Shown here: positions 1,491 through 58,731 of the stretch, in pieces
Layout of the letters: each line of letters begins with the position of its first letter
Numbering within the stretch: position 1 is the first letter of the stretch
DNA from: Branchiostoma floridae
Lineage: Eukaryota > Chordata > Leptocardii > Amphioxiformes > Branchiostomatidae
Length of the DNA: 64,000 nt
Direction of reading: 5' to 3'
NCBI RefSeq assembly: GCF_000003815.2
Contig: NC_049987.1
Span: 17,022,599 to 17,086,598, forward strand
Position numbers and translations under genes: made by a program
Notes under the pieces: model-generated
The model's input: only the letters and a program-made list of their open reading frames with translations
What the model was told of the DNA's origin: nothing
The model's database searches: none

Positions 1491-2632
1491 ACTTGCTAGT
1501 CCACGGGTAGTAGTGACACTGTGTTTAACTACCATTATTATCGATTCACCTTTCTCATATGCATCACATGTACATATAAGGGTACATTTTCTCAAGTCTT
1601 AAGCTTAGTTTTAAAAGGGTTGACCCTAGGACCCCCTGAACACTAAAGCAGCACTCTATCTCCTTAGTTTGGCTAATGCACACCCAGTCTGGTACTTTGA
1701 TCTCTATAATAGAGTCTATAATTGACGCACTATTACATTTTATTCCATTAAAGTTTGACTTCAATGTTTCTCCAGACGGAAACCACGCGGCTCAGTCAAA
1801 CTCAATTCCGTCTGTCTGGCCAGGATGTCAGCTAAGATTGCAACGAGTGGTGAGGTTACAGTCAGGTGGGTTGTACTGTTTAACTCTTTAAAGTTTTGCG
1901 GTAGTTTTGCAACAGCCTTGGTTCACATTGCTGTTTTGTTTTCCCCTTTTTTGCCCTCTTCATTAGAGCAGCCCAAAATATTTGCTTATTGTCATTTGTA
2001 TTGTTTTTGATAGTACAGTTTAATTATGACATTGCTTGAGTATATTGGTGGTATGTGCAAAGAGATCTACCCGATCTTGACACAGACATAAGTTTCAATA
2101 ATTTTGACATATAACTGTGTTACTCTCAATTTCTCAAAGTGTGCTCAACAGCAGGTGCTATTTAGACCACATATTTATGAATTTGTTTATTTGAATTCAT
2201 CATCACTTAGTGAAAGAGGGGACAAAATAGGTGCAAATGCACCTTTGCAGATTGCCCTCCCACACATAAAAAATTTAACTGTGCAATAACATTGCAATAG
2301 CAACAAACATGTATATCAATGAATATACGGGGCCTATAGAATAGCAAGCATAGTCAATATATTGATATACAAGATGCAAAAACTTAGTGTGGCCTTAATG
2401 ACGCTACACAGGAACTATATTGTACACCCACATGAGGTGGACCATGTTGGCATCCATGGTAGGCAGACAGGAAGGGTTAGGCGACCCGTCTGCCTGGCCT
2501 GCACTTGGGTTTTTAAGGTGAAGGAGGGGTGTGCACTTCCTTCTCCACCCTTTCGTCTACATGTACTGGCGCTCTAAGTTCTCCAGGGGTACCAGTATGC
2601 AACGTGTAAGACGGCCAGAGCAGATGCAGGTT
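1491..2632. other. no gene recognised
   Basis: Several short open frames, none with splice context or recognisable product. A short inverted CAGACAGG/GCCTGCACTT-rich patch lies near 2460-2505, just beyond the 3' tail of the retrotransposon. Confidence 0.4.
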
Positions 2633-2653
2633 TACCTACCTACCTACCTACCT
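2633..2653 (-). repeat. (TAGG)n 3' tail of the retrotransposon
   Basis: About five tandem TAGG units (TACC on the plus strand) follow the RT frame directly. Short tandem tails replace poly(A) in RTE and CR1-type elements. Confidence 0.75.
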
Positions 2654-4555
2654 AGTCCCTTGACCTCCAGGTCGTTGGGGGGACAAGGTAGACATGAAGA
2701 TCGAGATTTGCCTCCAGGTTCTTCTTTCCCTAGCCAAGGTTAGTCTCTCCTGTAGGCTGAGGCCCGTCCAGTCAGTGATGTTGTCCTGCCAAGCTTTGCG
2801 TTGACGTCCGCGATGACGCCCTCCCTCTACTGTTCCCTGCAGGATTGTCTTGGCCAGGTTGTTGTGTCTGGTAACATGCCCAAACCATTGCAGTTTGCGT
2901 CTTTTAACTGTCCCTAAGATTGGTTCTTGAGGGCCAACAAGACCGCGTACCTGTTCCCTCACATACTCGTTTGTGATGTGTTCATAGTACGAGATGTGAA
3001 GTACCTTCCGCATGCACTTCATCTCAAAGGCTTGGAATTTCCTCTCTGTGGATGCCAGTAGCGTCCAGGTCTCACACCCATACAACAGTATGGACACAAC
3101 TAGGGTCTTGTAGAGCTTGTACTTGACAGTAAAGCTGATGTTGTTGGATTTCCAGATCCTGGACAGACGAGCCATTGCAGATGTTGCCATGGCAATCCTC
3201 TTCTGTACTTCTGTCCGACTGGTACCATCCTTTGTAATAGACCCTCCCAGATATGTAAATGTGTCCACCTCTTCCAGTTGTTCCCCATTCATGAAGATGA
3301 CCGCATGTGTTTCGTCCCTGCTGTTCACCATCACCTTGCTTTTCTCGGTGCTGACCTCCATGCCAAACGACCCAGTACTCTGTGTTAACTTGTCTGTAAG
3401 GTCTTGGAGTTCAGTGTTGTTACCAGCGAGAAGGTCGATGTCATCTGCGAAGCGGAGGTTACAGATGCGTCTGCCACCAATAGAGATGGAGGTGTGATGA
3501 TCATACAGTGTGTCCTGCATGATCTTCTCCAAGTACAGGTTAAACAAGACTGGCGAAAGCAAGCATCCCTGGCGAACCCCGACTGTTGTCCTGAAGAATT
3601 CCCCCACTTTGTTGTTGAGGAACACTGCACTAGACGCCCTCTCGTACAAAGCTTCGATGGTCTGTATAAGGCCCTCTTCGACTCCAAAACCTCTCAAGAC
3701 CCACCATAAGCCGTCATGCCACACTCTATCAAAGGCCTTTTTAAAGTCGATAAAGTTGTGATAAAGGTCTTGTTGGTGCTGCATGTGTTTTTCAATGATG
3801 AGCCGACAGTTAAAAATTTGCTCAATGGTGCTCCGACCCGGCCTAAAGCCAGCTTGCTCTTCTGCTAGTAGTTCTTCTGCTTTAGACTCAAGCCTCTTCA
3901 AGATCACTTTGAGAAGTATCTTGCTTGGATGGCTGATCAGACTGATGGTTCTGTAGTTTTGGCAGAGACGCGTATTCCCCTTCTTGGGCAGGGGAATGAC
4001 TAGCGACTGTGTCCATTCCTTGGGCCACTTCTTCTGCTGCCAAATCTTCTGACATAGCTCAAAGTACTTGTCCACCACCACTTCACCACCATGCTTCAGC
4101 AGCTCTGCAGGAATGTTGTCAATTCCTGGGGATTTGCCTGGCTTCATGTTGCGCACTGCATCCACTACCTCATCCCTTAGGATTGGGAGGTCTTCTGGGA
4201 CTCTCTCCGCCCAAGGGGGGTTGTTCAGCTTTGCTGTGTCAGGTTGAAGTTCGTAGTTGTAGAGCTTATCACAGTACTCTGTCCACCGGTTGAGGACGGC
4301 CGTGCTTTCTGTCAAAAGGTTTCCACTACTGTCCTCGATCACCGTGGCCCTGGGTTGTTGTGTCCTTGTGAGAGTTTTAAGTGTCTCATAAGCCTTCTGG
4401 CTGTTCCCTGAAGCCATCCCATGCTGTATTTCTGTACACAGGTCTTCTATCCACTTCTCCTTGGCTTCTCTCATCTTCCTCCTGACTGTCGGTACTGTTC
4501 TGCATTTTCCTGACTGGTGCACTTCTGCTGTCTGAGCTCCCTTCTTCTGTCGCAC
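2648..4555 (-). CDS. retrotransposon reverse transcriptase domain (RTE-like, 3' part)
   Basis: A frame of 635 residues. The RT fingers and palm run from about residue 90 to 400: KSPGIDNIPAELLKHG, IPLPKKGN, NYRTISLIS, QAGFRPGRST, FIDFKKAFDRV, GVRQGCLLSP and the catalytic FADDIDLLAG are all visible. The thumb and C-terminal part follow, with YLGGSI, YGCETWTL, LQWFGHVTRH and GGRHRGRQRKAW. No internal stop occurs. The first ~30 residues are out-of-frame readthrough of the linker: homologous reading starts near VRRKMREAKEKW. The stop codon TAG at 2648-2650 is itself part of the (TAGG)n tail, so there is essentially no 3' UTR. Identification as RTE is from motif resemblance; clade not tested by phylogeny. 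Confidence 0.88.
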   Translation of the reverse strand: MRQKKGAQTAEVHQSGKCRTVPTVRRKMREAKEKWIEDLCTEIQHGMASGNSQKAYETLKTLTRTQQPRATVIEDSSGNLLTESTAVLNRWTEYCDKLYNYELQPDTAKLNNPPWAERVPEDLPILRDEVVDAVRNMKPGKSPGIDNIPAELLKHGGEVVVDKYFELCQKIWQQKKWPKEWTQSLVIPLPKKGNTRLCQNYRTISLISHPSKILLKVILKRLESKAEELLAEEQAGFRPGRSTIEQIFNCRLIIEKHMQHQQDLYHNFIDFKKAFDRVWHDGLWWVLRGFGVEEGLIQTIEALYERASSAVFLNNKVGEFFRTTVGVRQGCLLSPVLFNLYLEKIMQDTLYDHHTSISIGGRRICNLRFADDIDLLAGNNTELQDLTDKLTQSTGSFGMEVSTEKSKVMVNSRDETHAVIFMNGEQLEEVDTFTYLGGSITKDGTSRTEVQKRIAMATSAMARLSRIWKSNNISFTVKYKLYKTLVVSILLYGCETWTLLASTERKFQAFEMKCMRKVLHISYYEHITNEYVREQVRGLVGPQEPILGTVKRRKLQWFGHVTRHNNLAKTILQGTVEGGRHRGRQRKAWQDNITDWTGLSLQERLTLARERRTWRQISIFMSTLSPQRPGGQGTR

Positions 4556-14522: not shown

Positions 14523-15309
14523 TATGAATTATCTGTATTTGGACGGATAAAACGGTTGATGTATATTCCTCGTATTCGTCATGGTTCAGTTGAATTGTGT
14601 CTTTACACTTTCTTCAAAATATAATTACCATACCCTGCGTGCAAGCAAGCAGGCATTCTTTAACGTCTTCGGTGCATGTAACTAGAAATTGAAAATATTT
14701 CAATGAAATTCCCTGCTTCAAGATTTTGGATAAATGAATGGACGTTATAAAAGCTTCTTGGTTCAAGAGAGTAGCCGACAAATATAAAATGGATGTTGTG
14801 GAAAATGAAGTGAATTTCTTTTGCAAAATGCCCTGATTATGAGGCTAAAAGAAACGTATAAAATATAAATAGAGTCTTTTTCCACAATCTCTCCGAGTTT
14901 GCTCCATCTAGAAAACTATAAAAAAAAAACTTTTCTACTTAAGTCCCCCAAACCCACCGTTATCATAAACAAACATGGAACTATGGGGACTATGCAGTAG
15001 CCACTGTCTCCAAAAATTCAAACCCCAATAGATAGACTTATAGACTTGGAATTTTCTACCCTTTTCGTCATCTTGTTTAGCTGTGCAACTATCTTTTAAT
15101 GTGTATGTAAGAGGTTTGGACCTCCTGGCGGCTTTTTCTGGAACTGCAGGGACCGATTTGTTTGAGACTTGGTAAGAGAATTTTAAGTAACTCAAGTCAA
15201 GAATTGACGGATTGTCATGATCTTTTTTTTTTCAAATTTTAACAGCGGTTGTGACAAGATTTATTTTTGTGCAAAACCTAGAACCCGCCTCCGAATGAAA
15301 CAGCCCCTG
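14523..15309. other. no gene recognised
   Basis: 15113-15215 resembles the dispersed family with TGGCGGCTTT..GGAACTGCAGG seen at 36600-36720 and 39240-39450. The remainder is AT-rich. Confidence 0.4.
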
Positions 15310-22766: not shown

Positions 22767-38276
<15,510 letters not shown>

Positions 38277-50000: not shown

Positions 50001-50734
50001 GGAAGGCCTATCTACCACCCAAAACCTAGATCATAACATGTCTAGAGCACGAGATGGAAAACCCAGAATTTCAGCTGCAGTACCAAGGAAAGCCACCAGG
50101 GAGTTCAACATTAATCATTTCTTTGATAGAACATGACCTGCGAACATACCAAGTTTTATGACAATTCATTCATAGCTGCTTTAGTCCTTTTGTTATACTA
50201 CATACACATACTAGTATACTTTTATACATTACCTAAGATATAACGTGCTCGGTGTAGGTATTAATTATTAGCTCCTGTATCAGATATGCTTGATTTTCTA
50301 GATGAAGTCTGTAAATTACCAATATGTGTTTGAAATGTTGATTGCTAGCATTTGAATGTCGCGACCTACATACAGAAAATCACACTCATTTCTCTGTGGG
50401 TGTTCCCGCGCCTGTTTCTCGGTAATTGAGGCATTGCCACTCCAAACCAATTACAGGTCGCGACCAATTAGAATCTGCATAATTAAACACCATCAACTGC
50501 CAATCAATTGTCATTTGATACAGTAATTTCTTTGCCCAAAATATTCTTGTTCAAGCTTTTAATCGTCGTTATGTCGGTCGTATCTTCGGTGACCCAGAGT
50601 GACATGGATTAATACTTGATCTACCAATGAACGTAAGTCACCTCTATCCCGGCTGCCGCCAACATCAGCCGGACACTCTCGGCCTGCCCTCGGCCGTTGA
50701 AGTAGGTCAGCTTCGGTTTTCCCGGCTCGGACAT
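43966..50734 (-). CDS. glutathione S-transferase, alpha-like (six exons, 220 residues)
   Basis: A cytosolic enzyme that joins glutathione to electrophiles. On the minus strand, exons 50642-50734, 48996-49047, 48461-48593, 47215-47350, 45489-45620 and 43966-44082 join in phase to exactly 220 residues, the usual length. The thioredoxin-like half (1-85) has the catalytic Tyr11 in LTYFNGRGQAE, the ETKDELEKLR stretch and the cis-proline in QLPLLEINGVKLVQ (Pro58). The helical half (about 95-220) has the N-capping TFADVALLE (T154, D157) and a C-terminal RKPPADDKYVE typical of the alpha class. The loop that usually reads Q-[ST]-[RN]-A-I reads QVGAI here (Q69, V70), which removes a glutathione-contacting hydroxyl. 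It converges with the opsin. Introns carry mobile repeats. Confidence 0.95.
44083..45488. other. GST intron 5, no further gene supported
   Basis: Mostly unremarkable. A short LARKMRISKR-like reading near 44830-44860 resembles a transposase helix-turn-helix but is surrounded by stops. Confidence 0.35.
45489..45620 (-). CDS. GST exon 5
   Basis: Acceptor AACTTTTTGCAG, donor TTGGAG|GTGGGG. 44 codons, with FLVGTGMTFADVALLEPLLT. Confidence 0.93.
45648..46563. mobile_element. TIR element with internal ~190-bp tandem units in GST intron 4
   Basis: Ends CAGAGGCGGCGGCA and TGCCGCCGCCACTG are inverted with one mismatch, and both are flanked by ATTGT, a likely 5-bp target duplication. Inside are about four diverged units (GAAATTTTGAAATC, CTCTGAAACG, GACTAAGCTAAGT, GCGCCGGAGGCG), and C/G runs near both ends. 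It begins only 28 bases from exon 5. Confidence 0.8.
46785..47200. repeat. ~50-bp minisatellite beside GST exon 4
   Basis: About seven imperfect units with GCTGGTGTGTTACGCCGAAG, GGTTATACCGGCTATA and AGATACAGATACAG. It ends within 20 bases of the exon 4 donor. Confidence 0.85.
47215..47350 (-). CDS. GST exon 4
   Basis: Acceptor ATTCTTTCAG, donor GAGCAG|GTCAAT. It encodes CDMLAEGARDFNEIFNALPF to WLPIFEQ, the first helices of the C-terminal domain. Confidence 0.93.
47351..48460. other. GST intron 3, no further gene
   Basis: No recognised repeat or exon. Confidence 0.4.
48461..48593 (-). CDS. GST exon 3
   Basis: Acceptor TGTTGTTCCAG, donor GCTAA|GTACGC. It encodes GGDLLFLQLPLLEINGVKLV through LYGKNNVESA, the glutathione-site half. 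Confidence 0.93.
48730..48865. repeat. short CACGTGRCCGGCA repeats in GST intron 2
   Basis: Five imperfect units of about 22 bases (GAGATAACACGTGGCCGGCA), each with a CACGTG E-box. Confidence 0.7.
48996..49047 (-). CDS. GST exon 2
   Basis: Acceptor TCTTTTTCAG-like (TTTTTCAG), donor GAAG|GTAAGT. It encodes FDEKYVETKDELEKLRE plus one base. Confidence 0.93.
49048..50641. other. GST intron 1
   Basis: No exon. 49950-50165 is an inverse-strand copy of the CTAGCGGCTT / GGTACTGCAG dispersed family (GCTGCAGTACCAAGGAAAGC). Confidence 0.45.
50642..50734 (-). CDS. GST exon 1
   Basis: 31 codons from ATG (MSEPGKPKLTYFNGRGQAES) to GIE; donor GAG|GTGACT, phase 0. A longer upstream open frame is 5' UTR reading. 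Confidence 0.92.
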
Positions 50735-51573
50735 ACTGGTCGTCTCGGTCAGCTCTCTGGTCAAACTACAGACATAAAGACACAAGAACATCTTCTCAAT
50801 CTTTAGTAATATTGAACAAAGGCGGTAGCTAGGAATGGAAAGGTTTATAAGCAACAAGTATTATCTAGTTTGCAGCACGTAAAAATCATCCATGATCATG
50901 ATAATTCTACTTTTTACGTATTACATGAGGCCTGGTCGCATTCATCGTACGATTGTCGTACGATTGCAAATTGCAGTGGTCATTCTTGGCATAGTCTTAC
51001 GTACACATAGTCGTACAGCAGGTAGCTGTCCTATTACGGAAATGTTGTCTTACATTATAGATCCGTGTCTATGACAATCTTCTGGAAAATTCTACGACAT
51101 CAACGAAGATCGTACCACTGCCCGCGACAAATGTGACCACACCTTTAACGATAAATGGTCTCGAACAATATGGCCGCAAAAAGATGCCTCCAAATCCTAA
51201 AATGAACCTTCGGAAGCAAAGTATGTCCTCTGTAGGTGCTCTGAAGAAAACAACTGTCTGTGTTGATTCAGACTACACAGTACAATCCAGGCTCTTGTGT
51301 GGGCAGCCGGATGTTTGTATAAAGATGACTGAGGAAGCGGATGTGCATGTCTGATGAGTGACGTTCGTATAAGAGTTATGTGGACAGCGATTATAGAGAG
51401 AGCAAGCTTACACGCCGACATGTATCAAATGTCATAGAAGTACAGCGGCTTTACCTCTCCAGAGTGCTGAAAATCTTGCAGTTGTGTCGCGTCTTATTGA
51501 TTTTATCCAGATCTACCAGGCAATGCAATCTCACATAAAGAAGATGATTGTTGAATGTATCATTTATCATTCC
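50735..51573. other. upstream of GST, no gene recognised
   Basis: A weak inverted pair GGCCTGGTCGCATT / ATGTGACCACACC bounds 50930-51145, possibly an old MITE. Confidence 0.35.
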
Positions 51574-53735: not shown

Positions 53736-54790
53736 CGTGATAGGCTTATAAAATCGTTGCGTGTTGCTGCCATCAATAGAATATCATTAGTGCGGCCTTG
53801 CCCCGTACAGCACGTGGTGCTGACATCACAAGGCTTTATAATTCAAGTCACGGCGTCTGGCACTCTCAACAGGATGATTGGTCTTTCAATGCGGTAATTT
53901 GTTCCCTTTCACCTACATAAATGGCAGTTTTATCCCTTAAAGGTTACCGCAGTTTTAGAGCGCATCAGATGCTGTTCTCTTATTCCTGATACAAGAGAAT
54001 TGTCGATAATAACGTTCCATGTAATAGAAGCACGATCCATCAATACCACGTGCACACATGAAGAAAGGTTACGGAAATGTCATATTTGTCTTTCACGTCG
54101 CATCCAAGAAATCTACTGACAAATATTCATCCGCCTTTGATAAGCCTTTACGTATAAAATATCTATTTTCCTGACATGATGTGAATGTGGCATGCTCGCT
54201 AATAATCTATCCCCTAAGGACTAATTAAAGGGTATGATTTAGCTATTAGCGGAACCCCCGAAAGATCTACGCCTAACAAGGGACTGCTGTTTTTGTGTAC
54301 AGAACACATCAATGTTCTCGTTATGGTTGCTAGTATCAAATTATTCCATGCACCTGCGTCCCTCTTTCACGATCCGGTGTGTGCACATGTGAGTTTTGAT
54401 CAAAGTCTTTTCATAGTCAAATTTTGTACATTTCTTGAACGTTTATCTCGAAAATGGCGCCGTTTTGACAAAAAACAATCTTCAATTGAAAAAAGCGAGC
54501 TATTTTAGGAAGCCACCAAAATACATTCTTATTTCTTTGCCTTTACATATGGAAAGAAGGCTAAACTACCGCTATTGCCAAAGAAACTGCGCCATATGAA
54601 AAAAGAGGGTTCTTTTTCTTCCACTGTTAAATAATGTCAAACACAACAAGGTTTAGAACCTTAGCGACTGATTTTAGAGTAGCCACGTGTGTCATCTTGT
54701 CATTGTTTTATATGCTTTGTATTATTCACATGGTTATTTGTGAGTATGCCAAATAGCAGTTACTCTTTAAGCAACTGAATATAATTTTGT
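53736..54790. other. no gene recognised
   Basis: No recognised repeat or exon. Confidence 0.35.
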
Positions 54791-54940
54791 GAACTGTCAG
54801 ACGTTTTGGATAGCCTCCACTATCTTCCGTCAGTGACACTGAACAGATCTGTTGAAGATAATCTATACCTATTCTTCAAGAGATCTACTGAGTGTCACTG
54901 ACAAAAGGTAGTGACTGCTACCTGAAACGTCTGACAGTTT
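54791..54940. repeat. 150-base TIR element, AACTGTCAGACGTTT ends
   Basis: AACTGTCAGACGTTT (54792-54806) is exactly inverted at 54925-54939. GTGTCACTGA and AGTGACACTGA words inside are also inverted. The GAAACGTC end recalls the 27.2-28.4 kb cluster. Confidence 0.75.
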
Positions 54941-55055
54941 ACAAACAAGAAAGCTTTTAAAAAAAGCTGGCCGGGGCGCATTTGGAAGGACTACCTCAAA
55001 ATTTCATGTTGTGTTCCAGTAAAATGTGCATCATTATTAAACTAGAAGTTTATAT

Positions 55056-55502
55056 CTAAAATCTATGGGAAGTTGGCTGGAAACCTTTGTTCACTGGTAT
55101 AATTGGATTTTCCGGCGTACTTTTGTGGGCGGAATTGTATCCCTTGTGTGCGCTGTGTGCCGGATATAAAAATCGTAAAAGAAACTCCGGTGCGAGACCA
55201 CAGCCAAAGGCGGGAAGAGGTCCCGGATGTGCATTGTCGTTCTTTCTTCTGCTCACAGGTCTCATTTGCTTTCTTTGCTTTGTATGATGTTCTTTGTTCT
55301 GCAAGACTCTCTGTCTTCTGTTGATAGGTTTGTTTTTCTTGTTTGTCCTTGCATATTGCGCTTTGGATTGCAAGACCTTGCACTTTTTTATCATTTAAAT
55401 TTGATGCTGCATTTGGTGACATTACTAATTGATTCAAGAGGCCTTCATTCCTGTTCTCTGGCATAGCACTTGGATGTTTGCTTGTGGTGCATGGCACAAT
55501 GT
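55056..55502 (-). pseudogene. basic Lys/Arg/Gln-rich segment downstream of the protease, frame-broken
   Basis: Read on the minus strand after the gap: SPNAASNLNDKKVQG, then QQKTESLAEQRTSYKAKKAN and EQKKERQ, a charged repeat-like stretch of the kind that precedes replication or helicase parts in some transposon proteins. A second frame (55056-55394) carries NKKNKPINRRQRVLQNKEHH over the same bases, so at least one frame is not real or there is a shift. The link to the protease crosses the gap and is not proven. Confidence 0.4.
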
Positions 55503-55602
55503 NNNNNNNNNNNNNNNNNNNNNNNNNNNNNNNNNNNNNNNNNNNNNNNNNNNNNNNNNNNNNNNNNNNNNNNNNNNNNNNNNNNNNNNNNNNNNNNNNN
55601 NN
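55503..55602. other. assembly gap (100 N)
   Basis: Run of N that interrupts the protease element; translations across it have no meaning. Confidence 1.
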
Positions 55603-56291
55603 ATAGAAGAAACATTGCTAGTCAGATTGATAATGTGTATACCAGTAGGTTCAACTGATAAGAAAACATTTTCTGCTTGTACTGGGACAACCTCAAAATT
55701 GCATGTTGTGTTCCAGTTAAGTTGTTGCAAGAATGAAACTAGATTGCTGTTTGAACTGTGCATGCTTAAAGTAGAAGTGCCATGGCTATCTGGCAATGCT
55801 GTTATGGGACTTCTGGCATGTGAGTCATAAACAAAATACTTGTTATCAGCGTGCAACAATGCTACTGTTGAACCAGTTATTCCATGTGCTGTTATGAAAA
55901 GACAAGTGTTGGATTCAGCAAATGCTGCTTCTAGGGCTTTCTTTAAGGTGTAATAAGGATAGACTGCTTCTGTGGCAAATATGTCTCCAGTGTAAGACTC
56001 TTTTATTGATACACGTACAGTATTGTTGTAAAGTTGCAAATAGTCTGGAATATCATCAACGGAGAGGAACTCCACACCAGATCTTAGTGATGGTTTTATG
56101 TAGGTGTATAGTGCATCTCCTTGAAAAAGTACACCATCAAGGTCTGTACTTGTCCAGGTAATTGCTTGTCTGCAAGTACTGTGGTTAACAACTGCCATTA
56201 AAGCATTTGCAGTGCATTGTTTGCCTCTATTATCTCCACTGAAAATGATGTCACCTTGGTGGTATTTTCCCGATAAAATAGATTCACACAT
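55603..56291 (-). CDS. cysteine protease, C76/OTU-like, probably transposon-encoded (partial)
   Basis: From ATG at 56291 about 229 residues are open up to the assembly gap. RGKQCTANALMAVV places Cys26 as nucleophile after a Gly-x-Gln. YFVYDSHARS gives Asp156 and His158, a Cys...Asp-x-His arrangement known from the C76 deubiquitinase/deneddylase family and from papain-fold proteases in some animal transposons. Between them lie DDIPDYLQLYNN, ESYTG and CLFITAHG. The likely role is removal of ubiquitin-like tags or processing of the element's own protein; this is inference. The bases after the gap belong to another frame, as the gap length is arbitrary. A 42-bp minisatellite lies just upstream. 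No introns or host-like neighbours are seen. Confidence 0.6.
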
Positions 56292-56333
56292 TGTTCACAA
56301 TATATGTGTTCTTTGCTTGACTTTATTTGCACA

Positions 56334-56640
56334 ATGCACAGTGCTCAGTGGCACGATTGAGTCTGGTGTGTGCAAAATGCACAGTGCTCAATGGCACGAT
56401 TGGTCTGGTGTGTGCAAAATGCACAGTGCTCAATGGCACGATTGGTCTGGTGTGTGCAAAATGCACAGTGCTCAATGGCACGATAGGTCTGGTGTGTGCA
56501 AAATGCACAGTGCTCAATGGCACGATAGGTCTGGTGTGTGCAAAATGCACAGTGCTCAGTGGCACAATTGGTCTGGTGTGTGCAAAATGCAGTGCTCAGT
56601 GGCACGATTGAGTCTGGTATGTGCAAAATGCACAGTGATC
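56334..56640. repeat. 42-bp minisatellite, ~7 copies
   Basis: ATGCACAGTGCTCAATGGCA + CGATTGGTCTGGTGTGTGCA + AA repeats with exact 42-base spacing (56377, 56419, 56461, 56503, 56545, 56587). Since 42 is a multiple of three, several frames stay open on both strands. Confidence 0.95.
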
Positions 56641-57010
56641 AATGATCTGTTAATAGGTCTCAAGGTCTAATTTGGTTGGATCAAGGACTCTCTTTCAAAC
56701 CTCTTTGGTTGGATGCAAAATGTAATGCGTAGATTTCAGCAGAAGAAGTATAAATGTGTACTGTGTAAAATCTTATTGAGTACAGACTTTTGCTAGCTGT
56801 AAGTTTCTGTATATTACTGTGTCACTTGTATATATAGCAGAGAACAGTCTAAGGCGTCACTGAAACAGAAAGAAAATATTGTCTTGATCACATAACATCT
56901 TACTAGTACCAACAAAAAGCAAAAATCTACAAAAGTTCAGGTGTGACATCTTGCCAACTGCTTTGCTGATTGTTTAACAGTTAGCTACAATCTGTTGTTT
57001 TCTACTATTC
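56641..57010. other. no gene recognised
   Basis: No recognised repeat or exon. Confidence 0.3.
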
Positions 57011-57518
57011 TTTGGAAATGTATGTTTTAATGTATTAGAATCCGATCCATCTTTTCAACTTGTACGATATTTTTACAATCAAAAATGCCCTGCATAATGC
57101 CTCGCATCGGCTCAAGCACAGTGCACCATTAAACTATCTAAATTCTCGTCAATCCCCACACACTGGTTTTACTAAAAAAACTATATACCGTTCCTTGGAA
57201 ATATGTTTCAATGTGTCCGAATTCATGATCACTATCTTTTCAAATTGTACGTTACTCTTACGATCGAAAATGTCCTGCAGGACCTCCTGCAGCTGCATAT
57301 ATAGACGCACGCCCCCCTCCCACCCGCACGTAAACTGTTCCAATCGTTGCACAATAAACTTGACTGTATACCCTCCACAAAATCTTTCGTCAAATGTCGT
57401 GCTCATTTTACTCACATGACACTACGCCTTAGAATGTAATGTTATATTTTAATACATCCGAATTCCAGAAAGATAACTTTACAAACTGTACCAATTTCTG
57501 TACGATAAAAATCTCACC
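57011..57518. repeat. three spaced, diverged ~85-base repeats
   Basis: Copies at about 57011-57095, 57193-57280 and 57427-57518 share TTGGAAAT, AATGTRTYMGAATYC, CTTTTCAA-TTGTACG and TTACRATCRAAAATG. Spacers of about 100-150 bases between them are unrelated. CATATATAGACG follows copy 2. Confidence 0.6.
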
Positions 57519-57537
57519 TCCTCCGCACCGTCAACGC

Positions 57538-57752
57538 CCGTGAGGGTATTTACCGGAATAACCCGAAATGACCCGGAATAACCCGGAATAACCGTAATAT
57601 TTCTTGTTCCCATGGCCATATATACATTATTTTATGCCAAAATATTGCATTCTGCGATCTTAACTTATCAAAGCACACTGTATTTCGGTAGCTTTCATCC
57701 TTTATTAAGGTTATTCCGGGTTATTCCGGGTTATTCCGGGTTATTCCGCTAA
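57538..57752. mobile_element. foldback element with 10-bp repeat arms and 10-bp target duplication
   Basis: CCGTCAACGC flanks both sides (57528-57537 and 57753-57762). Inside, GGGTATTTACCGGAATAACC on the left and GGTTATTCCGCTAAATACCC on the right are inverted. The arms consist of tandem CCGGAATAAC units (10 bases), facing inward, about 4 on each side. The loop is about 110 bases, AT-rich. Confidence 0.8.
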
Positions 57753-57934
57753 ATACCCGGACCCGTCAACGCTATCGCAAAATGAACCGTGCGATTTAAC
57801 GACAACTCCTCAAATGTTACATGACCAGTGTTTTACTGCAAATCAAGAAACATTTTCCTTTCCTAGACTTTGCTAATGAGCGCTGCAATGTTTTCTGTAC
57901 GAGTAGAGGTCATGGATAAACAGTATTCTTACAA

Positions 57935-58050
57935 CGTTTATTTGAAGGGCTAAGAAGGGCTGAGAATTGTCGTAAAAACGCACGGTACATTGCGTTTATT
58001 TGAAGGGCTGAGAAGGGCTGAGAATTGTCGTAAAAACGCACGGTACATTT
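57935..58050. repeat. 58-bp tandem duplication
   Basis: Two nearly identical units starting CGTTTATTTGAAGGGCT, each with AATTGTCGTAAAAACGCACG. Confidence 0.9.
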
Positions 58051-58731
58051 TGCGACCATAGCAGACCCATCCAAGGACGAACCATTAAACCGGGGACAAA
58101 GCCGGGCGCCTGCGGCGCCCCGGCAAAAATCATATCCAGTTACTTGAGCAACTGCTATTTGGTGTATCATATCACCTGGATGTCTAACCTTCATCGACTA
58201 TCGCTCGGGCATGTTGTATTTATCGTTGTTGAAATATTATGGGGATCATTACCTATTACACTTTCGACACAAAAATTGAGGAAATAACATTGCAATTATC
58301 TTATTGCATCGACTTCACAACGATAGCTTTTTATTATGATTAATGCGGTAATTGAAGAAGGTTACATAAATATTCGAAAAAAAAAGTTATCATTTAAAAG
58401 AAAAAGAAATTAAAGCCAATCAGTATAACCTGTCATTTTGCCCAACCGAGCTAAGTACAGGTCACAACAGATTCAGAACATAGATGATAGTATCATGGAC
58501 CTAGTGTAACATAGACGTTCGGCTTCTTCTCGCTTCTTGGTAATGGGAAAATGTAGGACTGTATGGGTTTGTCTAAACGCATGAGGAATATAAATTTGTT
58601 AGTGCTACCCATGTGTCTACGTATACAGTGAGGGAATCTACTTTCTATATAGCTGAGTATTTCTATCATTAATACACATAGTGATTTCATCACATTTTAT
58701 CGTATGTAATCCTAACATAGGATTCTATGTA
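58051..58731. other. no gene recognised
   Basis: No recognised repeat or exon. Confidence 0.35.

Follow-up and report, generated by a model that had tools for sequence, protein, structure and literature searches.

The window, the 64,000-nucleotide stretch of DNA analysed here, contains on its minus strand an internally deleted Helitron2-type element (54944-58129; 3186 bases in the assembly, 100 of them the Ns of a gap) that shares its ends with other copies in the genome and lies between flanks unrelated to theirs. Within it an open frame at 55605-56291 (minus strand) encodes 229 residues from its ATG and carries the motifs GKQCTANAL and VYDSHARS; the plus-strand reading of 55603-56289 contains nine stops. 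The motifs supply C26 (codon at 56214-56216), D156 (55824-55826) and H158 (55818-55820, all minus strand), and translation thus bears out the cysteine protease-like arrangement that a first-pass annotation of this DNA had read here without stating a strand.

Against Pfam-A the 229-residue piece matches Herpes_teg_N (PF04843) at 29.3 bits (cut-off 25, E 7.9e-7), the sole family found at E<=10, and within the whole 1984-residue protein of a longer copy (described below) the same domain scores 24.1 bits over residues 11-161, just below the cut-off. Among PDB chains, phmmer aligned residues 8-175 with 8add_A (E 5.2e-13), the crystal structure of a zebrafish Helitron viral-tegument-like deubiquitinase (VTD) with published activity on Ub-PA, Ub-AMC and di-ubiquitin (PMC9741609), and found the KSHV tegument protein 6ppb_n at E 0.025. 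With a profile made from three subfamilies of the element these values became 2e-16 and 0.00099, respectively; the fimbrial-subunit, TcdB and phosphoglucomutase chains that it also returned (E 0.0028 to 0.63) were taken as chance. The VTDs of 3/3 subfamilies match PF04843 at E<=1 (best 8.6e-10). In the alignment with 8ADD, C26 falls on the catalytic cysteine, D156 and H158 fall on the FDSH motif, and D79-D80 fall on the acidic pair D376/E377 of DrT1-VTD2, which was shown to matter for the ubiquitin C-terminus (PMC9741609); all five residues are invariant in 3/3 subfamilies aligned. The 8ADD numbers were counted by hand from C322, which places the Asp-x-His pair one lower than the printed D451/H453, the motif itself being unambiguous. 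Judged by sequence, the frame is a VTD (peptidase C76), in line with the C76-like protease proposed earlier, in which the catalytic and ubiquitin-binding residues appear by alignment to be in place and which would be expected to be catalytic. Its fold is predicted to be papain-like from its homology to 8ADD, while AlphaFold run on the single sequence gave a mean pLDDT of 32.8 and no usable model. A chance frame is ruled out by the PF04843 match together with 107 matches in the genome. In viral and prokaryote sequence collections a pattern search returned 128 and 75 stretches, respectively, none of which was confirmed by tblastn as a relative.

The frame does not end where the 229 residues do. 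The assembly gap that had been noted (55503-55602) lies within it; in copies of this deletion class that lack a gap the interval is 146 bases long, and in one of them (L008) the frame crosses it and runs for 424 codons. Beyond the gap, in the same frame as the VTD, are a linker and the start of Lys/Gln-rich STPR repeats (55250-55502, minus strand), so that the Lys/Gln-rich segment which the first-pass annotation had set next to the protease is present as part of the same protein. An RbfA match of this piece in NCBIfam (21.2 bits, cut-off 136) was taken as chance. At 55249-55250 (minus strand) a deletion junction joins element base 2926 to base 14984 of a 15.3-kb copy, and the frame continues into the 3′ terminal region (54944-55249, minus strand), where it stops at 55060-55062. 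The nearby repeats that had been reported are also real and consist of 42-bp units (7.5 copies, 56328-56644) placed in the 5′ leader of the element. The leader further contains a 58-bp tandem duplication (57935-58049) and two short arrays of one decamer, CCGGAATAAC / GGTTATTCCG, at 57553-57593 and 57709-57748, inverted, about 115 bases apart and within the leader aligned with that of other copies; these arrays could form a long hairpin.

The 15.3-kb copy lies on contig C18, measures 15,289 bases from terminus to terminus and contains one uninterrupted frame of 1984 codons. Its protein comprises Herpes_teg_N (residues 11-161), STPRs (383-452), DUF6570 (595-717), an HUH Rep domain (Helitron_like_N, 870-1025, E 5.4e-26) and a PIF1 helicase (1504-1693, E 9.6e-26). 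The full-length relative thus carries an HUH Rep and a PIF1-type helicase in one protein, and the linked helicase that the first-pass annotation had proposed to look for is found here, in frame with the protease. Its Rep motif, RGSPHLH, carries the S that is a Helentron signature (PMC4067079). We looked for an AP endonuclease in this copy and found that the frame ends after the helicase; with Pfam none came up at E<=0.01 when the 6.8 kb downstream were translated in six frames, nor at E<=0.1 in a three-frame translation of the adjoining 0.9 kb, and since the long-frame scan missed a weak RPA-like match a decayed endonuclease could be missed as well. That weak match belongs to an antisense 340-codon frame inside the full-length element (L019:4352-5371, plus strand), which scores 22.8 bits against PF08646 (Rep_fac-A_C; cut-off 28.5) and possibly encodes an RPA-like single-strand DNA-binding protein. 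Two further VTD-Helitron subfamilies occur on contigs C1 and C5 (L021-L026), with VTDs 60% and 57% identical and stop-free frames of 1960 codons (two copies) and 2041 codons (one copy).

In the coordinates of the C18 copy, the 2926/14984 deletion takes DUF6570, Rep and helicase out of the window element, leaving it without the two enzymatic domains of an autonomous Helitron. The window element is a non-autonomous Helitron2 copy that arose by one internal deletion and has kept both termini and an open VTD frame.

The termini common to the copies are TTTTTGCCGGGGCGCC at the 5′ end and GCGCCCCGGCCAGCTTTTTTTAAAAGCTTTCTTGTT at the 3′ end, which in the window lie at 58129 and 54944. Comparison of the termini places a 5′ asymmetric terminal inverted repeat, GCCGGGGCGC, at 58115-58124 (minus strand) after TTTTT (58125-58129, some of which may be host), and this region folds as DNA into a 5′ terminal hairpin (58098-58129, minus strand) of −12.8 kcal/mol (z −2.73, with 2 of 200 shuffles as stable). 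The 3′ counterpart, GCGCCCCGGC, is found at 54970-54979 (minus strand) just upstream of a 3′ hairpin (54952-54968) whose fold (−4.7 kcal/mol, z −0.63) is weak, being matched in stability by 57 of 200 shuffles. The element sits in a host palindromic repeat (54749-54945), and when the window flanks are joined they run through the site in five paralogous repeats, which represent empty sites; one of the five is supplied by the window, as the opposite arm of this same palindrome. Compared with the empty sites, the joined flanks contain two extra A/T and are otherwise free of duplication, so that insertion followed TTTT without target duplication, with up to two Ts at the site assignable to either element or host. 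The palindromic target is itself another repeat family, with relatives in L023, L020 and L017 that are empty sites. Helitron2 elements have asymmetric terminal inverted repeats and hairpins at both ends and insert between TTTT and T or C with no duplication (PMC3627910, PMC5148889), and the termini and empty sites observed here fit this group.

A search of the genome (513 Mb, 431 contigs) with the VTD gave 107 matches, and this count, which the first-pass annotation had sought, excludes the single host orthologue that it had named as the outcome speaking against its reading. Together with the near-identical sequence of many copies, their different flanks, their shared ends and the empty sites, the number establishes the mobile origin that it had suspected. 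Of these matches 52, the window included, reach the top score with identity over 229/229 residues. At the DNA level, all 687 VTD bases are present in 14 further loci among those compared (13 distinct copies, as L003 and L011 are a single place), and each agrees with the window at every base. Over a 1141-base stretch of the leader, 13 fully covering loci (12 copies) differ from the window by one base, the same in each, which indicates a change private to the window; some partial loci differ from it by up to four bases. Identity of the VTD DNA among copies implies that there has been little time for decay.

The window, 52 loci representing 51 distinct copies, and another 15 sites were searched for junctions, with the C18 copy as coordinate system (VTD at 1839-2525). 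The VTD is kept to codon 220 or beyond in 43 copies, which fall into 12 deletion classes with a read junction. The largest is that of the window, 2926/14984, with 17 other loci, followed by 2959/15141 (9 copies, plus L089 within 3 bases), 2500/14991 (4), 2697/14774 (2) and 4900/14968 (2 copies with the VTD read). Single copies represent 2687/15004, 2802/13164, 2602/14704, 2944/14709 and 3098/15143, as well as 3886/15194, with a gap between VTD and junction, and 2592/15236, with unmatched DNA between them. In one gap-free read derivative, L077 (about 2270/13016), the deletion cuts the VTD, before D156 and H158. The remaining sites were left unclassed because of gaps or because the junction lies beyond the stretch examined. 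With 43 VTD-keeping derivatives in 12 classes against one broken, elements that retain the deubiquitinase as their only enzyme have spread recently.

We also probed for copies that have lost the VTD from either end of the element. For the 5′ end, 40 of 112 candidates were scored, and 28 of the 40 reach VTD codon 220 or beyond; in the other 12 a gap begins upstream of or inside the VTD, where loss and gap look the same. For the 3′ end, 40 of 240 candidates were scored: a VTD match lies upstream in 25, a gapped 5′ end in 5, and 10 show neither. Followed over about 0.8 kb, these 10 comprise four that enter gaps, three that show the 4900/14968 junction, two that continue in element sequence and one flanked by non-element DNA. 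A gap-free, two-ended copy without a VTD was not seen among these 40 of 112 5′ and 40 of 240 3′ candidates.

Among the three subfamilies the VTD has dN/dS values of 0.373, 0.289 and 0.300 (bootstrap limits 0.181-0.544; upper limits 0.544, 0.428 and 0.452), compared with 0.10-0.13 for Rep and 0.13-0.17 for the helicase. In full-length elements the VTD is under purifying selection, less tight than that on Rep and helicase. By this measure it evolves 1.7 to 3.7 times faster than either, which suggests that its role may be less constrained. For the short derivatives we compared retention of the VTD with that expected if left breakpoints were spread evenly over element 1914-3100: one of 11 classes is VTD-broken against 34% expected (p about 0.07), in a set of copies found mostly through the VTD. 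At this p value we make no claim of selection on the VTD in the derivatives.

VTDs in Helitrons are a known kind of enzyme, published in 2022 (PMC9741609), a precedent that the first-pass annotation had lacked along with the Helitron2 identity and the internal deletion. The zebrafish elements DrT1 and DrT2 (8ADD; PMC9741609) resemble the present one in placing a VTD in a Rep-helicase transposon and in having the Cys and Asp-x-His residues and the aligned acidic pair. They differ in that they carry two VTDs, or one VTD and an OTU domain, whereas the lancelet element carries one VTD and STPR repeats. A further difference is that, according to PMC9741609, Helitrons in which a VTD can be recognised have an AP endonuclease at their C-terminus (Helentrons), while none was found in the 15.3-kb lancelet copy. 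In this respect it is like the Helitron2 elements (PMC3627910, PMC5148889), which have no endonuclease and share with it asymmetric inverted repeats, a 5′ hairpin formed by the 5′ repeat, a 3′ repeat that immediately precedes the 3′ hairpin (a weak one in the lancelet element), and insertion after TTTT with no target duplication; to this plan the lancelet element adds the VTD, the STPR repeats and the weakly RPA-like antisense frame. The herpesvirus large tegument deubiquitinases (KSHV 6ppb; M48, UL36, BPLF1) share the Pfam domain and the catalytic order but are part of a viral tegument protein and distant (6ppb E 0.025, phmmer). This unusual deubiquitinase occurs in Helitrons as well as in herpesviruses.

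Short derivatives have their own parallels. HINE and DINE-1 derivatives of Helentrons likewise have internal deletions, ends shared with longer elements, T-rich targets and, in some, tandem repeats (PMC4067079), but are described there as being without coding capacity, whereas the lancelet derivatives keep an open deubiquitinase frame. Non-autonomous Helitron2 elements that encode an accessory protein have a precedent in CRe-1 to 3; these carry Fanzor1, and the lancelet derivatives a deubiquitinase instead. The words 'Branchiostoma' and 'lancelet' do not occur in the main text of PMC9741609, and among the papers listed in searches of open-licence literature no title or abstract beginning describes the element. 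What is new here is the host, probably a lancelet, the lack of a detected endonuclease and the spread of the deubiquitinase-only derivatives. This widens the range of Helitron VTDs to include a genome that is probably a lancelet's and a transposon for which the search returned no AP endonuclease. With a full-length, open-frame element and many very young derivatives that retain hardly anything beyond the VTD in one genome, the contribution of the VTD to mobility could be tested with matched elements.

Taken as a whole, the locus is very probably best explained as the N-terminal VTD domain of a non-autonomous Helitron2-type transposon, likely deubiquitinating for the transposition machinery. 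The VTD would strip ubiquitin chains (K48, K63 and perhaps K11) from the Rep-helicase or from host factors at the element and would thereby shield the transposition machinery from proteasomal turnover. The Rep-helicase of longer copies may act in trans on the intact ends of short copies, which would spread and might add deubiquitinase. Zebrafish Helitron VTDs favour K48 and K63 chains, two of the three also K11, and Erven et al. suggest that Helitron VTDs shield the Rep-helicase or its co-factors from the proteasome (PMC9741609). For the lancelet VTD we infer catalytic activity, substrate, linkage preference, expression and a benefit to the element; it could, as the first-pass annotation put it, stabilise the element's proteins or evade silencing.

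Two other identities for the protease are barely credible on the evidence above. OTU-like proteases are known in Helentrons (PMC4067079), and the frame could have been one of them; Pfam-A gives Herpes_teg_N alone and no OTU family at E<=10, and the Asp-x-His order is VTD-like, which speaks for C76 in the choice between C76 and OTU families that had been left to a family search. VTD genes outside transposons have been published in flies and nematodes (PMC9741609), and a domesticated host gene, as proposed for Drosophila ms(3)76Ca, might equally have been sought in the lancelet. For the window copy we consider this refuted, as it is one of 107 genome matches, identical among many copies, bounded by transposon ends and fused to a Rep-helicase in the longer copy. 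The target of the enzyme is a separate matter. The idea of a VTD directed at the host's chromatin or small-RNA silencing factors and not at the transposition machinery draws on the speculation of Erven et al. that ancestral deubiquitination in the male germline helped to overcome a limit on transposon inheritance; the published VTDs act on generic ubiquitin chains (PMC9741609), and we regard such a target as rather unlikely.

For the short copies in particular, we put the chances about even that the VTD frame has no role in them and rides along in copies too young to have decayed, the 5′ 2.5-3 kb being kept because deletions tend to begin downstream, near the repetitive STPR region. The identity of the VTD DNA leaves little time for decay, 10 of the 12 VTD-keeping classes have a left breakpoint within element 2500-3098, no further along than the point where the STPR repeats begin, the retention test gives p about 0.07, and L077 is a derivative with a broken VTD. 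Purifying selection between the older subfamilies speaks against a mere passenger in full-length elements, and five multi-copy deletion classes all keep the catalytic core, though these were found mostly through VTD matches. It is a considerably weaker possibility that the derivatives are deubiquitinase-only satellites, short Helitron2 copies that spread by keeping, and benefiting from, their own VTD. Were the VTD to act near its source, or its dosage to matter, a VTD-rich copy might be better mobilised by the borrowed Rep-helicase, and short copies would supply one enzyme and borrow the rest, unlike ordinary non-coding derivatives.

Elsewhere in the window, a frame with MSEPGKPKLTYFNGRGQAESVRLMLAAAGIE at 50621-50860 (minus strand) resembles the N-terminal exon of sigma-class glutathione S-transferases. 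A 43-bp tandem array of 14.6 copies occupies 32747-33367, in surroundings with a GC skew of 0.216.
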